A stretch of 34,707 nt of DNA. It comes from Polyangium aurulentum. Its GTDB lineage: Bacteria; Myxococcota_A; Polyangia; Polyangiales; Polyangiaceae. Made by a program: the position numbers and the translations under genes. The notes under the pieces are model-generated. The model was given only the letters and a program-made list of their open reading frames with translations. It did no database searches and was not told the origin of the DNA. Location of the stretch: NCBI GenBank assembly GCA_945875545.1, contig CAMCKZ010000029.1, positions 1 to 34,707 of the forward strand, in the 5' to 3' direction. Below, piece after piece: positions 20,660 to 34,707 of the stretch; positions within the stretch are counted from its first letter, which is position 1; every line of letters begins with the position of its first letter.

Positions 20660-22213
20660 ATGAAATCCTTATTCACTTCCTTTCTCACCTCCCTCGCCCT
20701 CGTGTCCTGCGCGACGGGAGAAAAACTCGTATTGTCCGAACAAGAGTGGCCCGCCGATGCGGGCAATCCGCCCCAGTCCGGCCATGCTACCCCTGTTCTC
20801 ACCCCTCGGCCCGAGGTTCCCATCGTCGACGTTGGACTGCCGGCGTCCACGGATGCAGGCGCGGCGCCGTCGCTCGACGCGGGACCGGGGATTCTCCTGC
20901 GCACCGTCACAGACCTCAATCGCGCGATTGATGGCGCGTTGGATGGCGCACATTTCGTGCTTGCCAACGGAAGCTACCGCGACGTGCTGCTCGTGATGGC
21001 GAAGTCCGGGATGGCTGTGCGCGCAGAAACCCCCGGAGGCGTGAGTTTTACGGGCTCTTCGCGGGTCTTGATCACAGGCGATCGCAACAGGCTGTCGGGG
21101 TTTCAGTTCTTATCCGGCGCGGTCAACGGCAACGCGATTCTGGAGGTCAGCGGCGACTCCAACACGCTCGAACACCTCAACATTCAAGGGGCCGCCGCAA
21201 AAACGTGGATTCACATCGCAGCCGGTTCAACAGACAACGAAATACTCTATTGCAACATTGAGGACAAGCCTCCTACCGCTTCGATTATCGGTGCAATCAT
21301 TCAAATCAGCACCGATGCAGCCGTGGTCGGGCGTCATGGAATCCGCCGGTCGTCGTTTAGAAACATACGGGGCCCAAGTGGAGACTTTGGCAACGAGCCC
21401 ATTCGAATCGGTCTCAGTACGGAGCGCACCAACGTGTCACGAAGCGTGGTGGAAGATTGCTATTTTGATAATGTCGGCGGGGGCGATAACGAAACAGTCT
21501 CCGTCAAGTCCGCCGAGAATGCTGTGCGTTACAACACGTTTACCAACAACCCCGCGGGAATGGTGGTCTTCCGCCATGGAAATCGAAATGTCGCGTACGG
21601 AAACTTCTTTTTGAATAATTCAGGAGGGATTCGGATCAAGGAGGGCAACGGCCATGCCGTATACAACAACTACTTCGAAACCGGCAGCGCGGCAGCCTTG
21701 GTCCTGACGTTCGTGCCCGAGTATCCACTGGATAATCTGTCTTTCGTTCACAATACTTTCACTCAAATGGGAGGCATTTCTTTGGGTGGCAGCGGCCCCA
21801 CACGCGTTAGGTTTGTGAATAATATTTTTCAAAGGGCCACGGGCAATATTTTTGCGTCGGCCACGGGAAACGAGGTTTGGACTGGCAATCTTTATCAGGG
21901 CACGTTGGGTCTGGCGGCCGCGACGGGGCTTCGTTCCGTGGACCCCAAGCTTGCACCAAACCCCGTTGGCTACCGTGGCCCTTCCCTCGGAAGTCCTGCG
22001 ATTGACGGGGCAACGGACGCGGTGACCACGATTCCCGCGTTGCTCGGGCTGGACAACGACCCGGCGGTGCTTCTCGACATCGGTCGCAGGTCGAGGCCGG
22101 CTCAAAATCGCGAGAAAGATGTGGGATGCGACGAGTTCGGCGCGCAACCAGCCGTCAAGAGGCCGCTCTCGCTCGGAGACGTTGGGCCGTCCTACTTAGC
22201 GCCGCGCCCCTAA
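20660..22213 (+). CDS. Family 6 polysaccharide lyase lipoprotein (alginate lyase/chondroitinase B type)
   Basis: 517-residue exported enzyme predicted to cleave uronic-acid polysaccharides by beta-elimination. The signal peptide ends in lipobox LVSC (Cys17), followed by an Ala/Pro/Asp-rich linker. From about 78 on it is a right-handed beta-helix with the signature of PL6: GNEPIRIG (244-251), ETVSVKS with the presumed Bronsted base Lys283, then FRHGN with Arg305/His306, GNFFLNNSGGIRI and HAVYNNYFE. The tail DPKLAPN..GYRGPSLGSPAIDG is typical of PL6 proteins. GGAG stands seven bases before the ATG. No transporter or oligosaccharide-degrading genes are adjacent, so it may release sugars from prey or remodel the cell's own matrix. 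Alginate versus chondroitin specificity cannot be told by eye. Confidence 0.87.
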   Translation: MKSLFTSFLTSLALVSCATGEKLVLSEQEWPADAGNPPQSGHATPVLTPRPEVPIVDVGLPASTDAGAAPSLDAGPGILLRTVTDLNRAIDGALDGAHFVLANGSYRDVLLVMAKSGMAVRAETPGGVSFTGSSRVLITGDRNRLSGFQFLSGAVNGNAILEVSGDSNTLEHLNIQGAAAKTWIHIAAGSTDNEILYCNIEDKPPTASIIGAIIQISTDAAVVGRHGIRRSSFRNIRGPSGDFGNEPIRIGLSTERTNVSRSVVEDCYFDNVGGGDNETVSVKSAENAVRYNTFTNNPAGMVVFRHGNRNVAYGNFFLNNSGGIRIKEGNGHAVYNNYFETGSAAALVLTFVPEYPLDNLSFVHNTFTQMGGISLGGSGPTRVRFVNNIFQRATGNIFASATGNEVWTGNLYQGTLGLAAATGLRSVDPKLAPNPVGYRGPSLGSPAIDGATDAVTTIPALLGLDNDPAVLLDIGRRSRPAQNREKDVGCDEFGAQPAVKRPLSLGDVGPSYLAPRP

Positions 22214-24547: not shown

Positions 24548-25066
24548 ATGGCTGATGTCACCCTTCGTCACGATATTTTTTGCACCGAGAACGACTACTG
24601 GGAAAAGTGTGTTTGGGGCGCGCCCTTCAATGAAGGCCTCTATCTAAAGAGCCTGGGTTTTCCGCGTTACGAGGTCCAGAGCGACATCGACGGCACCGAC
24701 GTGCGCACGCGCCGCACGCTCATTGAGCCCCCGGTTGCGGGCCTTCCGGCACCCCTCAAAAAAGTGATGGGCGACACGCTGAGCTACGTTGAAAACGCCA
24801 CCTTCAACAAGGCTACGCGCGTCTACGCCTTTAAGGTCACTCCCTCTGTTTTCGCCGACAAGGCGAAGATCCACGGAACGCTCAGCTGCGAGGCCGCGGC
24901 GGGCAACAAGTTCGTGCGCGTGGCGAAGATCTTCGTCGAGGTCAAAGTCTTCGGCATCGGCGGCATGGTTGAAGAGCGCATTATGGCCGACCTTCGTCGT
25001 TCCTACGACGTGGGCGCCACCTTCACGAACGACTTCGCCGCGCAAGGCGGCTTCTCCACGAAGTAA
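24548..25066 (+). CDS. DUF2505-like protein
   Basis: 172-residue soluble protein without signal peptide, starting at an ATG with a strong AGAGGAG site. The arrangement (LRHDIFCTENDYWEKCV at the start, then VENATFNKATRVYAFKV, a strand-rich centre and a helical C-terminus FGIGGMVEERIMADLRRSY) resembles the START/SRPBCC-like DUF2505 family found in actinobacteria and myxobacteria. Members are thought to bind hydrophobic ligands, but no function is established. Its final 15 codons and stop lie in a 55-base unit that is duplicated in tandem immediately downstream. Confidence 0.75.
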   Translation: MADVTLRHDIFCTENDYWEKCVWGAPFNEGLYLKSLGFPRYEVQSDIDGTDVRTRRTLIEPPVAGLPAPLKKVMGDTLSYVENATFNKATRVYAFKVTPSVFADKAKIHGTLSCEAAAGNKFVRVAKIFVEVKVFGIGGMVEERIMADLRRSYDVGATFTNDFAAQGGFSTK

Positions 25067-25132
25067 TACGAAAGCCGTCACGAACGACTTCGCCGCGCAA
25101 GGCGGCTTCTCCACGAAGTAATACGAAAGCCG
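25023..25132 (+). repeat. Perfect 55-base tandem duplication across a gene's 3' end
   Basis: 25023-25077 and 25078-25132 are identical. The unit holds the last codons of the DUF2505-like gene (TNDFAAQGGFSTK), the stop TAA and the following ATACGAAAGCCG. Because 55 is not a multiple of three, the second copy is out of frame with the gene and is simply trailing sequence; the first stop ends translation. Each unit contains a GCCGC-GCAAG-GCGGC hairpin. Perfect identity points to a recent event. Confidence 0.97.
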
Positions 25133-25350
25133 TGCGCGTGTCATCCGCGGTGCGTGCGCGGTATGCGCGACGCATATGCTCGGGACTGTAAGCGTACAAC
25201 GGCGGCCGTGGCCCAACTGGGAGGCCCTCCGGGTGCCGCGAGAGGCCGTTGTCCGGCGGTCTTGCGCTGCCCTACGGAACGCGCTATGGGCACGGTCTCA
25301 CATCGCCGCGCGGCTTAAGCCGTGCACCCATTGGAGCCATTCGAGCCAAC

Positions 25351-26074: not shown

Positions 26075-26418
26075 CGGCACATCCGCCGTATAGGCGTGGG
26101 GCGTGTAGTGTATGCGTATGGGCTATACCGCGAGAGCGCGGCTCGTCGGAGGTAAGCCCCGGAGGCTAAAGCTGTCGCGGCCCACCGGAAAGAGCGCTCC
26201 GGGCGCGAGGCCAACCGGCGTTCATGGTCCCGACGCTAACCAGAAGTAGAATGATAGCAAGGAGTTGCAGCGCAGCTGCGATGCGGAATTTACTCCTGCC
26301 TTGCCTTGCCTTGCCTTGCCTGGCGGCACGAAATGGCGTAATATCGCGCGCGCCGCACCTCAGAGATGACGTGCGAGGCGTCGTGTTGCCGTGGTTCGAG
26401 TGTCTCGTGAGGAAACCG
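26075..26418. other. Leader/promoter region of the giant lipoprotein gene
   Basis: 344 bases without a gene. It contains an alternating stretch (26089-26127, with GTGTATGCGTATGGGC), short hairpins CCGCG-AGAG-CGCGG (26128-26141) and CCGGA..TCCGG near 26180-26200, and the TTGCC repeat at 26301-26320. It should hold the promoter and an untranslated leader of the gene starting at 26419. I could not match it to any riboswitch I know. Confidence 0.6.
26301..26320. repeat. TTGCC pentanucleotide tandem repeat
   Basis: Four perfect TTGCC units, with four of five bases of a further unit on the left (TGCC) and a partial T-G on the right. It lies about 100 bases upstream of the start codon of the giant lipoprotein gene. 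Such repeats are prone to slippage during replication. Confidence 0.9.
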
Positions 26419-29400
26419 ATGAAGAGTATGGAACGCTGCGCCCAGTTGGGCCCGTCGATGTTGGCCGCTATGCTGTTTTTGAGCGGCTGCTCGGGTCGCG
26501 TTGAACACTCGGACGCGAAAGGCGTGGCGTCGTCGTCGGCACCCCTGTCACCCGCACTGTCACCCGCACTGTCACCCGCGGCTCTCGCGGAACCTGGGCT
26601 GACGACCATTGGCACGGGCGCGCAGGGCGCGGTGGACGACCTCGTGCGGAATGGCGTGCGAACGATGGCGGGCGAGGCGATAGCCGTCACCGTCTCTGGC
26701 TCGGCCCTCACGACCTTCGCGTCCGGCAGTGCCGCCACAGTCATCGACCCGGGCCTGACGGTCGTCAGCTCGGTGACGATACCGGGCGCCACGGTCACCC
26801 TTGGCGCGGGCTTTGGCGCCGGCGATTCCCTCGATGGCAGCCTCACGGGCACCACCGGCATCACGAAGGCCTTTAGCACGACGACCGGCGTCTTGACCTT
26901 CACGGGCGACGGCACCGCGGCCGTGTACCAGACGCTGCTGCGCTCGGTGACCTACTCGAGCTCCTCGACCACAAACGCGTCCCGAACGGTCACTTTCGGC
27001 CTCGGTACGGCCGTCGCGTACTCGGTCAACGGGCACTTCTACGAGGTTGTGTCCACGACCATGGGCTGGAGTGCAGCCAGAACAGCGGCAGCCGCGCGCT
27101 CGTACCTCGGCCTTGCGGGTTATTTGGCGACGATTACAAGCGCCGACGAGAACGCATTTGTGAAGGCGAAACTCACGGCAAGCACCGTCTGGTTTGCAGC
27201 CAACGCGCCGACCACGGGTTGTCCGCGCACCTGGAAGTGGGGAGCGGGCCCGGAGAACGGCACAGACGTGTGCAACAACACGGCCAGCGGAACGTGCAGC
27301 GCCATCGGCGGAGCGTTTGTCAACTGGGCCACCAACGAGCCCAACGGGTGCACCAGCGAAGGTTCCACCCAGATGTACACGACCGACGGTAAGTGGAACG
27401 ACCTCAGCGGGGCCAACAACCTCGGCTATTTGGTGGAATACGGCGACATGGTGGGAGACCCCGTCCTTGCCCTCAGCGCCAGCCACACCCTCACCCAAAC
27501 CTACGACGATTCGGTCCTCACCGCGTCCTCGGGCACCGTCACCGTCGCCGCGGGCGCCGCTGCGACGGTCGTGGACAGCCTCCTCACAGCCTCGGCGACC
27601 GCCACGGTAACGAGCGCAACGGTGGCGATTACCACTGGCCACGTGGCCGCCGAAGACCGTCTGGCCGTCGGAACGGCGGGCTCACTCACAGCTGCTTACG
27701 TCACGGCAACAGGTATTCTTACGCTATCGGGCAGTGCTACGGCTGAAACATACCAAGCCGCATTGCGTACGGTGACGTACCAGAACATCGTCTCGCCTTA
27801 CCCCACGGTCGCGGCGCGCAATATTCGCTTCGCGTTTGGGAGTCGCACGGCCAACCGGGCTCTCCAGGTCACGGCCGCCCCAACGGTCACTGTGTCGACC
27901 TCCGGTGCCTCGGTGCTGCCCGGCGTGTCGGTGACCCTGACGGCGAACCTTGTTCCCACGGCCGCCACGGGCACGGTGCAGTTTAAGTCCGGGTCCACCA
28001 ATCTTGGGTCACCCGTGAGCATTAGCGCGGGGGCCGCAGCCTATACCACGTCTGCGCTAGCGGTCGGGGTTCACAGCATTACCGGCGTTTACAACGGCGT
28101 TTCGCCGTACACAACGTCCACCTCGGCGGTACTCTCGCAAACGATTCTTGGAGGCGCTGGGCAAGGCACGTGCACCGCCGCAAACGCCGCGGCGGTTTGC
28201 TCCACCGGCCTGTGCAACACCACCACGGGCACGTGCGCCCTCGCAAACGCGGGCAGTTGCACGGCCGCCAACGAGTGCACGAGCAACAACTGCGGGTCCA
28301 ACAGCAAGTGCGGGCTCAACGATGGTCAAACGGGTTGCACAGCGGGCACAGCCACGACCGTGTGCCAGTCTGGGTTGTGTAGTACGGATAACAGCCACTG
28401 TATTTCGGCGAGTGGTTGCTGGGTCGATGGCGACTGTACTACGGCGGGCCAAACGTGCAGCGCCGTCAACAAGGTATGCGTCACGGCCGGCGTCGTGTCC
28501 ATGGCGACGGCGAGCGACACGGGTTTCAGCAACACAGACGGGGTGACGAGCGTTTCTCTGCCGACCATGCGGGTCACCCTTGGCGGCACGAGCGCGGGCG
28601 CCGGCGACGTCGTAAAGCTCTCGAACATAGGGATTCTCCTGGGCCAGGTCACGCTCACGGCGGCCCACATCACCGCGGGGCAGGTAGACGTTCCTCTCAC
28701 GACGGCCCTTTTGGAGGCAGGCTCGGGCGGGCTAACCGCGGCCGGTGTGTACTGGGTCGACTGGACGTCTCAGGCTGGCAACAATGTGTTCGGCACCTTT
28801 ACGACGGCGAGTGCCACCGTGTCGGTCACCTTGGCCAATACGGTTGCGTACCAGGGCGTGCAGCTCACGGGCGGCACCAACTATTGGGTGCCCGGCGGGC
28901 CGTACATTAGCACGGGAGTCGCCGCACCGAACCGGACGGACATCATTCAGTTCAATCTGAAGGGCACACGGACGCTGACCTTTTCCGAGCCCGTCGAAGG
29001 TCTGTACTGGGCGGTCGTCAGCATGAACGGCGCGGGTTACCAGTTCAACCGCGACTTCGACATCGTGAGCCAAACCGGCGTCGCGAACAACCCGGGCTAC
29101 TGGGGTAGCGGTCAGATGGCGAAACGGACGGTGATCATTTCCGACGGCTCGACCCGATGGGAGCTTTACGCCGTTAGCGGCGAGCCCCACGGCGTGGTCC
29201 GCTTCAAGGGGGCTTTCTCCACCATGAACTGGATCGCCCTCGTGGACGAGAACTGGAATGGCGCGACCCTCGGAATCGGCACGGCGTCGGCCGAAATCAA
29301 GGCCGTCGGCGGGGGCATTTTCACCGCGGGCGGGGTTCTCGTGGCCCCGGTGACCCAGGCCTCCGTGACGGTCGATCAAACCGCGCCGGTGGCTCCATCG

Positions 29401-32400
29401 GCACCGGCATTGGCCGCGGCGGATGACACCGGTTCCTCCTCGACGGACGGAATCACCAGCGCCACATCGGCCCTGACTTTCTCCTCGTTCGTCGAAGCGG
29501 GCAGCTACGTCACGCTCTTCGACGACGCCAACACCAACGGCTCCCTCGACGCCGGCGAGGCCCTCGTTACGGACGTGCAGTCCACGACGGGAACCTTCAC
29601 GACCGACATTTCGCTCGCCGCCGGAGCCCACTCGCTGCGCGCGTTTGTGAAGGATCTCGCAGGCAATCTCGGCCCGGTCAGCGCCGCGAGTGCCATCACC
29701 ATCGACACCACCAAGCCCACGATACAGGTCGGCGCGCCATCGGTGGCGTTGACGAAAAGCGGCGCGGTCACGTTCCTCGTGACCTACGCGGACGCGAACG
29801 CTCCCGCGAGCACCCTCGGCTCGGGGAACGTGTCTGTCACCGCCACAGGCACAGCCGCAGCAACTACAATCACTATAACGGGTACCGGTGTAACGCGCAC
29901 AATAACCGTTTCTGGTATTACCGGAGATGGCACCCTTGCGCTTACCGTTCAGGTGGGCACGGGTGTCGATGCGGCAGGCAATCTGGCCCTCGCGTCGGGC
30001 CTCACGTCGGCCTTCGCGGTCGACAATACGGCACCACAAGCGCCTGTATTTACAGGCTTTTCGCCGGACTCACTGCCCCTCGGCGACAGCGCAACCACGG
30101 CCAACACGGTCGTGGTCTCGGGCACCGGCGAGGCCGGTGTGACGATCACGATTCGTGATGGCGGAGCCGTTATCGGCACGGTTACCACCGACGGCGCGGG
30201 CAACTTCACGCACACGATCTACTCCATGGCTACCGGCGCCCACAGTTACACCGCGAGCGCCGCCGATGCCCTCGGGAACACAAGCGCGTGGAGCAATCCC
30301 CTCGCGGTGATCGGCGATATCGACGAATGCGTCGCGGGCACCTCCTCGTGCAGCGTGCAGGCGACGTGCGCCAACACGGTCGGAAGCTTCACATGCGCCT
30401 GTATCGCGCCGTGGACGGGCAACGGAACGGTGTGCCTCGCGCCCATCGGTGTCGCGTGTTCGGCCGCCAACCAATGTGCCAACGGGCTTTGTGGCACAAA
30501 TGGCAGTTGCGGCCTCGCCGATGGCCAAGCCGGCTGCACCGCGTCTACAGCGGCCCTGTGCCAATCGGGGGTTTGCGGTGCGAGCGGCACGAACTGCATC
30601 CCTTCTGGGGGCTGCTATTCGTCCGCGGATTGCGCGGCGGGCCAGCAGTGCAACAGCGTCACGCTCGCCTGCGAAATTGCGCCTAGACTCCAGGTCGCCT
30701 CGGGAACCACGACATACAGCGCCATGGGAAGCCCCATCGCCGTCGACCCGGCCCTCACGGCCGTGGGCGCACCGGCGGTCACTGGCGCGACGGTCAGCAT
30801 CGGAGCCGGATTTGTGGCCGCGGAAGACACGCTCGCCTTCGCGAATAGCAACGGTATTACCGGGACGTATAACAGTACGAACGGCGTATTGACGCTGTCT
30901 GGATCTGCGACGAGCGCCGTATACCAAGCGGCCATGCGCTCGGTGACCTATTCGAACTCCGCGGGAACTCTCCCCGCGACCGCCTTGCGCACCGTGACCT
31001 TCGGTCTGGGCACGGGACTTTCGAACCCGAGCAACGGCCACTTCTACGAGTTTGTGCCGACGACCATGGGCTGGAGTGCAGCCAGAACAGCGGCAGCCGC
31101 GCGCTCGTACCTCGGCCTTGCGGGTTATTTGGCGACCATTACAAGCGCCGACGAGAACGCGTTTGTGAAGGCGAAACTCACGGGAACCGCCTGGTTTGGG
31201 GCCTACGCGCCGACCACGGGTTGTCCGCGCACCTGGAAGTGGGGAGCGGGCCCGGAGAACGGCACAGACGTGTGCAACAACACGGTCAGCGGAACGTGCA
31301 GCGCCATCGGCGGAGCGTTTGTCAACTGGGCCACCAACGAGCCCAACGGGTGCACCGCCGAAGGTTCCACCCAGATGTACACGGTCGACGGTAAGTGGAA
31401 CGACTTCACCGGGACCAACAACCTCGGCTATTTGGTGGAATACGGCGGCATGGGCGCCGACCCAACGCTGACGCTTTACGGCTCAAAATCGCTGCAAGTG
31501 AAGGCACTTCCGGCGGTAACCGTCGCGACATCCAACGCCGGTGCCAAGGTCAATACCTCGCTCACGTTCACCGCGACCCTCGCACGCACCACCGCGACGG
31601 GCACGGTGCAGTTCCAGATTGCCGGCGTGGCTCACGGCAGCCCCGTAACCCTGGTGAACGGCGTCGCACTGGTTTCGTCCGTGGTACTCGCCGCCGGAAA
31701 CCATACGATTAGTGCGGTCTACAGCGGTGACACAGCGAACCAAGGCAGCACTGGCACACTCACGAACGGTCAGGCCGTCATCAAGCTGAACAACACGGAA
31801 GGCACGTGCACGGCGGCCAACGCGGCGGCCACCTGCGCCACGGGAGTTTGCAGCGCGGCAGGCACTTGCGGCTACGCACTGAACGAGGGTCCTTGCTCCA
31901 GCGCCAACGCTTCTACCGTGTGTGTTAGCGGGAGTTGCAGCACGGCCAATGTGTGCATCCCCGCCGGGGCTGGCTCGTGTTATGTCGATACGGAGTGTAC
32001 TTCGTCGCAGTTCTGCAGGCGCTCGACCTACACATGCACCGCGAAGCTCGCCGTCGGCGTAGCGATCGCGAGCGACACGCTCCACAACGGCACGTGCACC
32101 GCGGCCAACGCCGCGGCCGTCTGCACCACGGGCGCGTGCAACAGCGTGCAGAATACATGCGGCGCCGCAACGGGAGCGGCCTGCACCGCCACGAACCAGT
32201 GCGCGGCCAACGCGTGTTCGTCGACGGGCGCGTGTGTCCCCTCGGCGACGGCGTGTTACAACGACGGCGACTGCGCGGGCGGGCTCTTTTGCCACCGGTC
32301 GAGCGCCACATGCACCGCAAAATACGGCGCCGGCGTGGCCGTCTCAAACGACACCCTCCACGATGGCACATGTGCCACCGCAGCAAACGTGTGTGCGACC

Positions 32401-34707
32401 AATAGCTGCAACGTCTTCACCAGCACGTGCGCGGTCGGGAACGGAAGCGCCTGCGCCGGTGCGAACCAGTGCGGCTCCAATCAGTGCGCGGCGAGCGGAA
32501 GCTGCGTACCCGCGGGCGTGGCAAGTTGCTTCGCTGACAGCGATTGCGCGGCTTCGAGCTTCTGCCATCGCGGGACCTACACGTGCACGGCCGACCTCGC
32601 TCCGGGCGTGGCCGTTTCGAGCGACACCCTCCACGACGGCACCTGCGCCACCGCGGCAAACGTGTGTGCCAGCGGCTCGTGCAACACGAACACGAACACC
32701 TGCGCCGCGGCGGTTGGCGCGAGCTGCACCGCTGCGAACCAGTGCACCAACAATGTGTGTGGCACGAACAGTAAATGCGGCTTCACCGATGGCCAAGCCG
32801 GCTGCAGCGCGGCCACAGCGGCCCTGTGCCAATCGGGGGTTTGCAGCGCGAATGCAGGGTCGTGCGTTCCGGCGGCGAACGGCTGTTACGTCGACGCCGA
32901 CTGCGCGGGCGCAAGCCATTGCGACCGAAACACGCTGCTGTGCCAGGCTGATCTTGCGGCGGGCGCGCCTCTCCCCGTTGACGCCATCCACAGTGGAGTC
33001 TGCGGGCCAACCCTCGCGGGGCTTGTGTGTGTCACCGGTGCGTGCAACGCGGTTACCAACACGTGCGGTGAGCTAAACGGCGTCGCGTGCACGAGCGCCA
33101 ACCAGTGCACGGCGAACGTCTGCGGCGGCAACGCTCTCTGCGGACGCAACAACGGCGAGGGTGCCTGCACCGTAGCCACCGGTCCAGCGGTTTGCCAGTC
33201 GGGGGTTTGCAACAGCACGGCCGATGGTTCCGTGAGCGCCTGCATCCCCGAGGCAGCCGGCAGTTGCTACGTCGACGGCGATTGCGCGACCAGCGATTTC
33301 TGCGCCCGCAGCACGTTTACCTGCACGGCAAAACTTCCGTCGGGCACAGCTCTCCCGTTCGACTCCGTGCACAATACATGCACTGCCGCGGCGGTTAATG
33401 CGGCCTGCGTGACGGGCCTCTGCAACGCCACCGCGAACACCTGCGCCTCCGCCAACGTGGCCGTTTGCACCGCCCCAGCCCAATGCACGGTCAATACGTG
33501 CGGCACAAACGCCAAGTGCGGCGCGGCGAACGGCGATCCCGGGTGCACGGCCCTGAACGCCGCGACTCTCTGCCAGTCGGGTATTTGCTCGGCGGCAAGC
33601 GGCGCATGCATTCCCGCCGACGGCTGCTGGCTCGACGCCGACTGCCTCGCGGGCCAACATTGCAACCAACGGGCGTTCACGTGCGCGGCGGACCTCGAGC
33701 CCGGCATGGCGATTCCGACCGACGGACTCCACGACGGCCGCTGCGGTGGCGTAAACGCCGACGCCGTGTGTGTGTCTCGCCTCTGCAACGATGCCGCCAG
33801 CACCTGCGCAGCCCCAAACGGCGGCGACTGCGCGGTGGCCAACCAATGCGTGGTAAACGCCTGCGGCACCAACGGAAAGTGCGGACTCGCGGCGGGCCAA
33901 TCCGGCTGCAACGCTGCGAACGCCACGGTTTGCCAATCGCACACCTGCGGGGTTAGCGGTGTGTGTATACCCCAAGCAACGGGCAGTTGCTGGGCAGACG
34001 GCGATTGCGCGACGTCGCAGCACTGCAAACGCGACACGTTCACGTGCATCGGCGACCTCGCCGCGGGCGAACCCGTGCCGATGGACTCCCTTCACACGGG
34101 TATTTGCAGCGACGCAACGGCTCTGGCCACCTGCCTCTCGGGCTACTGCAATGCGGTGACCAACACCTGCGCATCGGTCAACAGCACACCATGTATTCGT
34201 GCGGGCCAATGCGCGGTAAACGTGTGTGGCAGCAACGGCAAATGCGGACTCAACGACGGGCAAAGCGGTTGCCTCGTCACCGGTGCCAGCTCCTGTCAAT
34301 CCGGCGCATGCAGCACGGGTGGCGTGTGCGTGCCCGCGGGCAAATGTTGGGACGACAGCGAGTGCGCGGCGGACCAATACTGCTCCCGGGCAACCTTCGC
34401 ATGCACAGCGAAAGCGCGGGCCGGCGAGCCCATCCCGAACGACGGACTTCACGACGGAAAATGCACCGAGGCGAACGCGAAGGCCACCTGCGCATCGGCT
34501 TTGTGCAACGCGGGCACCAACACGTGCGGCACAGAAAATGGCGTCGCGTGCACGGCCCCAGCCGAGTGCACGAGCAACATTTGTTCCACAGACGGAGCGT
34601 GTGGTTACGCCGCCGCCAAAGCGTGCACGTCGAACGCCGACTGCCGCAGCGGTGGGTGCGTCGAGGGTGCCTGCACGGTTCCCGGTGCCACGGTCTCGGG
34701 GCGAGGC
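26419..34707 (+). CDS. Giant surface lipoprotein: Ig/cadherin-like, C-type lectin, EGF and Cys-rich repeats (runs off window)
   Basis: One frame is open from the ATG at 26419 (GAGGA five bases upstream) to the right edge, 2763 codons without a stop; I translated it throughout. The N-terminus is a signal peptide with lipobox LSGC (about residue 24), followed by three LSPA repeats. Order, approximate residues: cadherin-like sandwich 84-190 (GVLTFTG..AAVYQTLLRSVTY); C-type-lectin-like 204-342; second cadherin-like 372-475; Ig-like Big_3 type 488-574; Cys-rich module 583-690; unassigned 695-980; three Ig-like units 983-1298, the first with a Ca-loop-like DDANTNGSLDAGE; calcium-binding EGF 1300-1339 (DIDEC); Cys-rich block 1346-1420; third cadherin-like 1425-1533; second lectin 1539-1676; Ig-like 1697-1790; then tandem Cys-rich modules 1795 to the edge. 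Likely a long extracellular adhesin or recognition protein; its ligand and C-terminal anchor are not visible. Confidence 0.93.
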   Translation, partial: MKSMERCAQLGPSMLAAMLFLSGCSGRVEHSDAKGVASSSAPLSPALSPALSPAALAEPGLTTIGTGAQGAVDDLVRNGVRTMAGEAIAVTVSGSALTTFASGSAATVIDPGLTVVSSVTIPGATVTLGAGFGAGDSLDGSLTGTTGITKAFSTTTGVLTFTGDGTAAVYQTLLRSVTYSSSSTTNASRTVTFGLGTAVAYSVNGHFYEVVSTTMGWSAARTAAAARSYLGLAGYLATITSADENAFVKAKLTASTVWFAANAPTTGCPRTWKWGAGPENGTDVCNNTASGTCSAIGGAFVNWATNEPNGCTSEGSTQMYTTDGKWNDLSGANNLGYLVEYGDMVGDPVLALSASHTLTQTYDDSVLTASSGTVTVAAGAAATVVDSLLTASATATVTSATVAITTGHVAAEDRLAVGTAGSLTAAYVTATGILTLSGSATAETYQAALRTVTYQNIVSPYPTVAARNIRFAFGSRTANRALQVTAAPTVTVSTSGASVLPGVSVTLTANLVPTAATGTVQFKSGSTNLGSPVSISAGAAAYTTSALAVGVHSITGVYNGVSPYTTSTSAVLSQTILGGAGQGTCTAANAAAVCSTGLCNTTTGTCALANAGSCTAANECTSNNCGSNSKCGLNDGQTGCTAGTATTVCQSGLCSTDNSHCISASGCWVDGDCTTAGQTCSAVNKVCVTAGVVSMATASDTGFSNTDGVTSVSLPTMRVTLGGTSAGAGDVVKLSNIGILLGQVTLTAAHITAGQVDVPLTTALLEAGSGGLTAAGVYWVDWTSQAGNNVFGTFTTASATVSVTLANTVAYQGVQLTGGTNYWVPGGPYISTGVAAPNRTDIIQFNLKGTRTLTFSEPVEGLYWAVVSMNGAGYQFNRDFDIVSQTGVANNPGYWGSGQMAKRTVIISDGSTRWELYAVSGEPHGVVRFKGAFSTMNWIALVDENWNGATLGIGTASAEIKAVGGGIFTAGGVLVAPVTQASVTVDQTAPVAPSAPALAAADDTGSSSTDGITSATSALTFSSFVEAGSYVTLFDDANTNGSLDAGEALVTDVQSTTGTFTTDISLAAGAHSLRAFVKDLAGNLGPVSAASAITIDTTKPTIQVGAPSVALTKSGAVTFLVTYADANAPASTLGSGNVSVTATGTAAATTITITGTGVTRTITVSGITGDGTLALTVQVGTGVDAAGNLALASGLTSAFAVDNTAPQAPVFTGFSPDSLPLGDSATTANTVVVSGTGEAGVTITIRDGGAVIGTVTTDGAGNFTHTIYSMATGAHSYTASAADALGNTSAWSNPLAVIGDIDECVAGTSSCSVQATCANTVGSFTCACIAPWTGNGTVCLAPIGVACSAANQCANGLCGTNGSCGLADGQAGCTASTAALCQSGVCGASGTNCIPSGGCYSSADCAAGQQCNSVTLACEIAPRLQVASGTTTYSAMGSPIAVDPALTAVGAPAVTGATVSIGAGFVAAEDTLAFANSNGITGTYNSTNGVLTLSGSATSAVYQAAMRSVTYSNSAGTLPATALRTVTFGLGTGLSNPSNGHFYEFVPTTMGWSAARTAAAARSYLGLAGYLATITSADENAFVKAKLTGTAWFGAYAPTTGCPRTWKWGAGPENGTDVCNNTVSGTCSAIGGAFVNWATNEPNGCTAEGSTQMYTVDGKWNDFTGTNNLGYLVEYGGMGADPTLTLYGSKSLQVKALPAVTVATSNAGAKVNTSLTFTATLARTTATGTVQFQIAGVAHGSPVTLVNGVALVSSVVLAAGNHTISAVYSGDTANQGSTGTLTNGQAVIKLNNTEGTCTAANAAATCATGVCSAAGTCGYALNEGPCSSANASTVCVSGSCSTANVCIPAGAGSCYVDTECTSSQFCRRSTYTCTAKLAVGVAIASDTLHNGTCTAANAAAVCTTGACNSVQNTCGAATGAACTATNQCAANACSSTGACVPSATACYNDGDCAGGLFCHRSSATCTAKYGAGVAVSNDTLHDGTCATAANVCATNSCNVFTSTCAVGNGSACAGANQCGSNQCAASGSCVPAGVASCFADSDCAASSFCHRGTYTCTADLAPGVAVSSDTLHDGTCATAANVCASGSCNTNTNTCAAAVGASCTAANQCTNNVCGTNSKCGFTDGQAGCSAATAALCQSGVCSANAGSCVPAANGCYVDADCAGASHCDRNTLLCQADLAAGAPLPVDAIHSGVCGPTLAGLVCVTGACNAVTNTCGELNGVACTSANQCTANVCGGNALCGRNNGEGACTVATGPAVCQSGVCNSTADGSVSACIPEAAGSCYVDGDCATSDFCARSTFTCTAKLPSGTALPFDSVHNTCTAAAVNAACVTGLCNATANTCASANVAVCTAPAQCTVNTCGTNAKCGAANGDPGCTALNAATLCQSGICSAASGACIPADGCWLDADCLAGQHCNQRAFTCAADLEPGMAIPTDGLHDGRCGGVNADAVCVSRLCNDAASTCAAPNGGDCAVANQCVVNACGTNGKCGLAAGQSGCNAANATVCQSHTCGVSGVCIPQATGSCWADGDCATSQHCKRDTFTCIGDLAAGEPVPMDSLHTGICSDATALATCLSGYCNAVTNTCASVNSTPCIRAGQCAVNVCGSNGKCGLNDGQSGCLVTGASSCQSGACSTGGVCVPAGKCWDDSECAADQYCSRATFACTAKARAGEPIPNDGLHDGKCTEANAKATCASALCNAGTNTCGTENGVACTAPAECTSNICSTDGACGYAAAKACTSNADCRSGGCVEGACTVPGATVSGRG
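26545..26580 (+). repeat. Twelve-base in-frame repeat after the lipobox
   Basis: CTGTCACCCGCA occurs three times in a row (last base G in the third), encoding LSPA-LSPA-LSPA just after the lipidated Cys of the giant protein. It forms part of the flexible linker between the lipid anchor and the first folded domain. Confidence 0.92.
27028..27444 (+). repeat. C-type-lectin-like domain, copy 1
   Basis: Encodes a C-type lectin-like fold: NGHFYEVV start, GYLATITSADENAFV, VWFA, WKWGAGPENGT, FVNWATNEPNGC, then GKWND and GYLVEYG at the end. The EPN triplet is the calcium/sugar-binding triplet of mannose-type lectins and WND the second calcium-site motif, so sugar binding is plausible. Four to six extra cysteines (GCPRT, VCNN, GTCS, NGC) may form bonds specific to this group. 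Its DNA is about 95 percent identical to 31033-31446 by my count. Confidence 0.85.
28168..28488 (+). repeat. Cys-rich module, full 16-cysteine form
   Basis: First occurrence of the Cys-rich unit, from GTCTAANAAAVC to VNKVCVTAG, with 16 cysteines in the order also seen near the C-terminal end. It stands alone, between an Ig-like domain and an unassigned domain, about 3.3 kb before the main array. Confidence 0.85.
30316..30435 (+). repeat. Calcium-binding EGF-like domain
   Basis: Encodes DIDECVAGTSSC, CANTVGSFTC and C.APWTGNGTVC: the calcium-binding DxDEC start, the hydroxylation-type Asn/aromatic region (CxNTxGSFxC) and six cysteines in EGF spacing. It is followed at once by a Cys-rich block that lacks its usual first four cysteines. 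Annotated as a domain within the giant protein. Confidence 0.85.
31033..31446 (+). repeat. C-type-lectin-like domain, copy 2
   Basis: Second lectin-like segment of the giant gene. Compared with 27028-27444 I count 19 base differences and one missing codon over about 414 bases. EPN and WND motifs are kept. The cadherin-like sequence just before it is related to that before copy 1 but far more diverged, so the lectin-coding DNA was copied or homogenised recently. Confidence 0.9.
31801..34707 (+). repeat. Tandem array of Cys-rich modules (nine, last incomplete)
   Basis: After the module beginning at 31801, units starting with LH(D/N)GxC (or IH/VH variants) begin at 32080, 32356, 32629, 32986, 33367, 33727, 34090 and 34447. 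Spacing is 92, 91, 119, 127, 120, 121 and 119 residues. The 31801, 32080 and 32356 units have 12 cysteines; the next five have 16, the extra four lying in an inserted block with CGTNxKCG..xGxxGC..xxCQSGVC. Every unit ends with C(Y/W)xDxDCAxxxxCxRxTxTC. The last unit changes pattern near the window edge. Confidence 0.9.

Follow-up and report, generated by a model that had tools for sequence, protein, structure and literature searches.

The gene that runs off the end of contig CAMCKZ010000029.1 of Polyangium aurulentum is best read as encoding a lectin-headed TraA-like receptor or adhesin with a TraB-like partner, and it is reasonably probable that it represents the recognition half of a two-component surface system of the TraA/TraB kind. 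TraA/TraB serves as the model of how bacteria recognize kin and exchange membrane, and it is mostly viewed as a single special locus. What is new here is the occurrence of C-type lectin heads in a TraA/TraB-like layout, the breadth of the paired and fused forms of that layout, and the cassette-like head with different triads in different congeners; the combination of a stalk, a MYXO-CTERM tail and a TraB-like anchor is already known from TraA/TraB, and the lectin unit is itself common.

The window analysed is the whole of this contig (C29; 34,707 nucleotides), which belongs to a genome of 3.5 Mb that is 97.5% complete and split into 188 contigs. A first-pass annotation, made from the letters alone, had described a single open frame with a lipobox, two lectin-like domains with EPN and WND motifs, a calcium-binding EGF domain, Ig- or cadherin-like sandwiches and at least eleven Cys-rich modules, all of which were borne out (Table 1). 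The frame runs without interruption from its ATG to the last base of the contig, with a Shine-Dalgarno sequence (GAGGA) a few bases 5' of the start. An alternative ATG at 26224, which would add 65 residues, was disfavored because the Shine-Dalgarno sequence lies at 26419 and the signal peptide follows directly. Congener alignments lead to an expected full length of about 2,805 amino acids, with only some 44 residues missing. A search for the missing C-terminus on the other contigs of this genome turned up nothing but paralogous OmpA pieces, and the partner gene was not found there either. A search of phage records gave no DNA match to the locus. Five exact copies of TGCCT occupy positions 26297–26321, about 100 nt 5' of the start codon; this pentanucleotide repeat could make expression of the giant gene phase-variable. 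A 55-bp exact tandem duplication (25023–25133) lies at the end of an open reading frame at 24548–25066.

Table 1. Features of the giant gene and its product, in window positions.
Feature	Position	Strand	Basis
Giant lectin/Ig/EGF/Cys-rich lipoprotein	26419..34707	+	Open frame to contig end, 2763 residues
Signal peptide and lipobox L-S-G-C, Cys24	26419..26490	+	Sequence and pattern check
Cadherin-like beta-sandwich flank hosting inserted lectin 1	26689..27027	+	Alignment; AlphaFold of unit (modelled on copy 2)
C-type lectin domain 1	27028..27444	+	EPN 27337-27345, WND 27394-27402; Pfam Lectin_C E 0.0013, below cut-off; PDB sequence matches; copy-2 fold
Big_3_5 Ig-like domain	27895..28146	+	Pfam
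Cys-rich module 1	28171..28482	+	Self-matches and signature
Big_13 Ig-like domain	29398..29709	+	Pfam
Big_6 Ig domain	30088..30288	+	Pfam
Calcium-binding EGF domain	30316..30435	+	Pfam EGF_CA E 1.2e-8
Cys-rich module 2	30436..30678	+	Signature
Cadherin-like flank of lectin 2	30691..31032	+	AlphaFold pLDDT 92.6
C-type lectin domain 2	31033..31446	+	EPN 31339-31347, WND 31396-31404; Foldseek E down to 2.5e-7; DNA near-identical to copy 1
Stalk, nine further Cys-rich modules (128 Cys)	31789..34707	+	Signature; tail just past contig end

Structural modeling, carried out on copy 2, confirmed the heads as C-type lectin folds with intact putative Ca2+- and sugar-site residues. The Pfam Lectin_C model falls just under its cut-off on these domains (19.9 bits against 22.6), while a sequence search of the PDB matched proteins of the C-type lectin fold. 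Lectin 2 within its cadherin-like host domain was modeled by AlphaFold2 from 44 aligned sequences with a pLDDT of 92.6, and among the Foldseek matches listed all were C-type lectin-fold structures, including macrophage galactose lectin, CEL-I and CD23. Both copies retain EPN, the Glu that follows it and WND. All 44 lectin homologues keep WND and the third Glu, with EPN in 38 of them and QPD in four. The unit of a C-type lectin within a cadherin-like domain is common across Bacteria and Archaea. The remaining globular domains (Big_3_5, Big_13, Big_6 and EGF_CA) scored above their Pfam cut-offs.

The protein contains 172 cysteines, 128 of them within residues 1791–2763. Modules were counted by the signature C-x-x-D-x-D/E-C and its spacing, giving 11 in total, nine of which are continuous in the C-terminal part, and they align with the corresponding modules of congeners. 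A two-module piece of the stalk was modeled by AlphaFold with a pLDDT of 91.5; a Foldseek search with the stalk returned no significant PDB neighbor, and the weak top matches include Dickkopf and knottin folds.

The end of the protein that lies beyond the window is known from congeners. A search with the Cys-rich part of the protein brought up orthologues in two genomes of the genus. One (G002:C51, public contig CAIQDA010000051.1 of the MAG Kiruna3_bin-1548), 1193 residues long and open at its 5' end, is 69% identical, and a second (G001:C279) is 57% identical. Both continue about 42–44 residues past the point at which the window stops, finishing with a single Cys, then a hydrophobic segment and RRRR. 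Two congener tails (L011, L012) scored 17.6 and 18.9 bits against the MYXO-CTERM model TIGR03901, for which the cut-off is 20; this shortfall is uninformative, because the genuine TraA of a relative (L097) scores just 15.0 bits on the same model. Against TIGR03382, the L012 tail scored 17.1 bits, above the cut-off of 15.85. The window's own genome carries a myxosortase (G000:C13) with 116 bits on Mrt_core (cut-off 100), closest to MrtC at 161 bits, under the 195 required by that model. Since a lipobox is combined with a C-terminal tag, the giant protein may be lipidated at both ends. The same combination occurs in two fused homologues described below (L185, L187), in L210 and in several other stalk proteins, and was not found in the TraA-type examples L098 and L303; a loose-rule lipobox scan was positive in 9 of 28 cases, a count from which the frequency of dual signals is only indicative. 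The N-terminal lipobox lies near lectin 1, a poor fit to a head placed simply at an N-terminal tip. A large, Cys-rich protein that is possibly lipid-anchored at both ends might instead be a structural matrix or S-layer-like component, its lectins cross-linking the cell's own polysaccharide. This is very improbable given the large specialized heads and the pairing of homologues with a partner that binds peptidoglycan, which points to an anchored contact protein.

That partner was found directly downstream in congeners. In L011 and L050 the next gene, on the same strand, begins 17–20 nt after the stalk gene and encodes a signal peptide, a barrel, TSP3 and OmpA, the L011 copy being truncated. On the window's own contig the sequence stops short of the tail and of the partner gene, both of which are known from congeners that are 57–69% identical. 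The best NCBIfam match of the partner is TraB (NF033763), at an E value of 7e-39 over model positions 40–496 of 522, with scores of 133 bits (L050) and 55 bits (the truncated L011) that stand far under the 700-bit cut-off. Pfam OmpA was matched at an E value of 2e-19, and TSP_3 above its cut-off only in L011. The two congeners supply the C-terminus that the first-pass annotation had suggested seeking to the right of the window, a MYXO-CTERM-like tail of about 44 residues, and after it a TraB-like gene.

Each of the 59 relatives searched has many TraB-like barrel/OmpA genes (6–29 matches per genome), while near-full TraB scores (525–570 bits) occur in only three of these genomes. A TraB-like neighbor alone was accordingly rejected as proof of TraAB kinship, and adjacency statistics and gene fusions were used in its place. 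The same abundance supports the view that the giant protein is a one-component adhesin to exopolysaccharide, particles or prey, and that its TraB-like neighbor is an unrelated envelope protein of the OmpA type. In keeping with this, the lectin unit is shared by many unrelated bacteria and archaea, one lectin/Cys-rich/MYXO-CTERM protein (L190) has no TraB-like neighbor, and a gene for a chondroitinase-B-like polysaccharide lyase (20660–22213; Pfam E 4e-28) lies a few kb upstream of the giant gene. However, the pairing is seen in two congeners and in a distant Deltaproteobacteria MAG (L210), where the gene for a stalk protein that has lectin and EGF domains and a MYXO-like tail overlaps a TraB-like gene scoring 285 bits, and it is enriched over background. 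Of 53 TraB-like genes in the order, taken in rank of TraB similarity with true TraB excluded, 19 had, on the same strand and no more than 300 nt away, a neighbor that is rich in Cys or carries a MYXO-CTERM-like tail. Such genes made up 21 of 83 adjacent genes and 6 of 147 other genes at the same loci (p 3e-6), figures that are approximate given simple gene calls and a TraB-ranked sample. The order of the stalk and TraB-like genes varies among loci. Together with the fusion of both halves in L185 and L187, this enrichment makes the one-component adhesin unlikely.

The two fusions, both from MAGs, were found by a scan of named genomes for the lectin unit. L185 (labeled Archangiaceae; JAACJQ010000026.1) has 2864 amino acids and two lectins, and is about 45–50% identical to the giant protein over much of its length; L187 (labeled Archangium sp.; CAIVGN010000037.1) has 4449 amino acids and three lectins. 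In both, a single frame encodes, in order, lectins, Cys stalk, MYXO-CTERM, signal peptide and a TraB-like barrel-TSP3-OmpA part, an example of the internal MYXO-CTERM being GGGGCSAGGGGSALWLLGLAMLLMRRSRR. The hairpin formed by a sorting tag and a signal peptide suggests that each is a polyprotein that would be cut by myxosortase and signal peptidase. The same MYXO-CTERM/signal-peptide/TraB-like junction, in frame, is found behind other N-terminal parts in about a dozen further loci from many genomes of the phylum (among them L285, L286, L289, L290, L292, L294, L295, L296, L297, L298, L100), and the L297 fusion sits in a genome assembled as a single contig (G036). L154 and L287 at first looked like fusions too but were discarded, as their junctions have no MYXO-CTERM and probably represent internal starts. 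Internal MYXO-CTERM motifs were called rare by Guo et al. (2025; PMC11980579), who described MXAN_5598 of M. xanthus as probably a fusion, similar to TraA joined with TraB. The recurrent in-frame fusions are suited to a direct test of internal processing by myxosortase. The window's own genome also has, on the minus strand of another contig (L057; G000:C4:46000-65311), a frame of at least 5823 amino acids with an N-terminal part unrelated to the giant protein and a C-terminal order of MYXO-CTERM-like segment, signal-peptide-like segment, TraB-like barrel, TSP3 and OmpA, which makes it one more fused polyprotein.

On the preferred reading, that of a lectin-headed recognition protein with a TraB-like partner, the giant chain would be exported as a lipoprotein, and its two C-type lectins and Ig/EGF domains would be held off the cell by the disulfide-rich stalk of nine modules. 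The C-terminus would be cut by myxosortase and anchored to the outer membrane via the MYXO-CTERM Cys, and the TraB-like partner (barrel, TSP3, OmpA), if also present in this strain, would fix the base of the stalk to peptidoglycan. The lectins may then bind, in a Ca2+-dependent manner, glycans of neighboring or prey cells or of the matrix. A role in cell-cell or prey contact, as the first-pass annotation had proposed, is plausible.

Its further proposal, a larger molecule of TraA-like design, is well supported by the Cys-transmembrane-Arg tails of congeners, the TraB-like next gene and the homologues fused in frame. With TraA/TraB of Myxococcus xanthus the giant protein and its congeners share a lectin-like head, a Cys-rich stalk, a head that is more variable than the stalk and, in congeners, a MYXO-CTERM-like tail and a barrel-TSP3-OmpA protein encoded directly downstream (PMC3325183; PMC12045341). 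TraA and TraB associate 1:1, with TraB providing the anchorage to the wall (PMC12045341). The giant protein differs from TraA in having two C-type lectin heads where TraA has a PA14-like domain, in being about four times longer, with Ig and EGF domains, and in carrying a lipobox where TraA has a type I signal; the congener partner is only a distant relative of TraB. No NCBIfam model, the TraA models NF033759 and TIGR04566 included, matched the giant protein at E<=1, and none of the three genomes of the genus had TIGR04566, which the same search did detect in G005, G015 and G020. Cys-rich repeats of the TIGR04201 type were likewise absent from the giant protein, whose Cys pattern differs, and were matched in the positive control L097. 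As both the TraA N-terminal domain and these repeats are absent, the giant protein is, as judged from these sequence models, not a member of the TraA family. It had been called an independent molecule; this is only partly right, since the protein belongs to a widespread TraA/TraB-like two-part layout.

The layout shared with TraA/TraB (PMC3325183, PMC12045341) could be taken to mean that the giant protein is a true kin-recognition receptor that, like TraA, uses homotypic binding to drive outer-membrane exchange. A variable lectin head on a conserved stalk would suit such a receptor, and in a genus without TraA the giant protein could take over that role. However, C-type lectins normally bind glycans, not themselves, the protein shows no homology, in sequence or in domains, to the variable domain of TraA from which exchange could be inferred, and the genus is represented by only three genomes; a kin receptor in this strict sense is improbable.

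Comparable to the fused homologues is MXAN_5598 (PMC11980579), in which an adhesin, MYXO-CTERM, barrel and OmpA likewise form a single chain, whereas the version in the window and its congeners consists of two genes. The heads are not comparable, as the paper gives only a "predicted large adhesin region". In the open-licence papers searched, no account of the combination of lectin heads, Cys stalk, MYXO-CTERM and TraB-like anchor was found. The earlier statement that no such protein had been described therefore stands for the exact combination within these papers, but not for the adhesin-MYXO-CTERM-barrel-OmpA fusion of MXAN_5598. Farther afield, bacterial and archaeal proteins with the lectin unit (L195 from Lyngbya, L199 from Limnoglobus, L231 from Methanolobus) also have the lectin in a cadherin-like sandwich, usually with EPN and WND, but a Cys-rich stalk with MYXO-CTERM was found in none of the scanned loci of other phyla, where other anchors are used. 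One small example, L189/L157 (G060:C514; 393 residues), joins an IPTL-CTERM-like sorting tail to a single cadherin-like/C-type lectin unit.

The lectin head has a history of its own. Lectins 1 and 2 of the window differ at a dS of about 0.05, against 1.0 for the preceding domain and 1.6 for the following region, which points to intragenic conversion or cassette copying restricted to the lectin. There have since been 14 non-synonymous and 5 synonymous changes (pN/pS 0.85–1.08; the flank upstream has 0.5). Positive selection on the lectin was considered and set aside, as the changes are few and, at a pN/pS of about 0.9–1.1, relaxed constraint fits equally. Between the window and G002, identity is 54% in the lectin, 76% in its flank and 68% in the C-terminal 708 Cys-rich residues, and EPN in the window is replaced by QPD in G002, so the head looks like a fast-evolving cassette. 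According to PMC5379193, EPN is generally linked with mannose and QPD with galactose. The triad of a C-type lectin can thus be read as a ligand prediction, here of mannose-type sugars for the EPN copies and galactose-type sugars for the QPD of the congener.

These observations suggest that the TraA/TraB layout, with its head, stalk, MYXO-CTERM and TraB-like anchor, can be reused as a platform for other lectins. More tentatively, and less probably than not, TraA/TraB may be just one branch within a wide class, the modular two-part recognition systems of Myxococcota, which would have swappable heads (PA14, C-type lectin and others), Cys-rich or other stalks and TraB-like anchors of their own, encoded by adjacent genes or as a polyprotein cut at the MYXO-CTERM/signal-peptide hairpin; in this genus, a lectin version that switches between mannose and galactose would replace TraA for kin or prey recognition. 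In L187 (4267–17616), three lectins with EPN, QPD and EPN, in that order, lie in one chain, which suggests mannose- and galactose-type heads on a single molecule; these lectins are without the sharp homogenization seen between the window's two copies.
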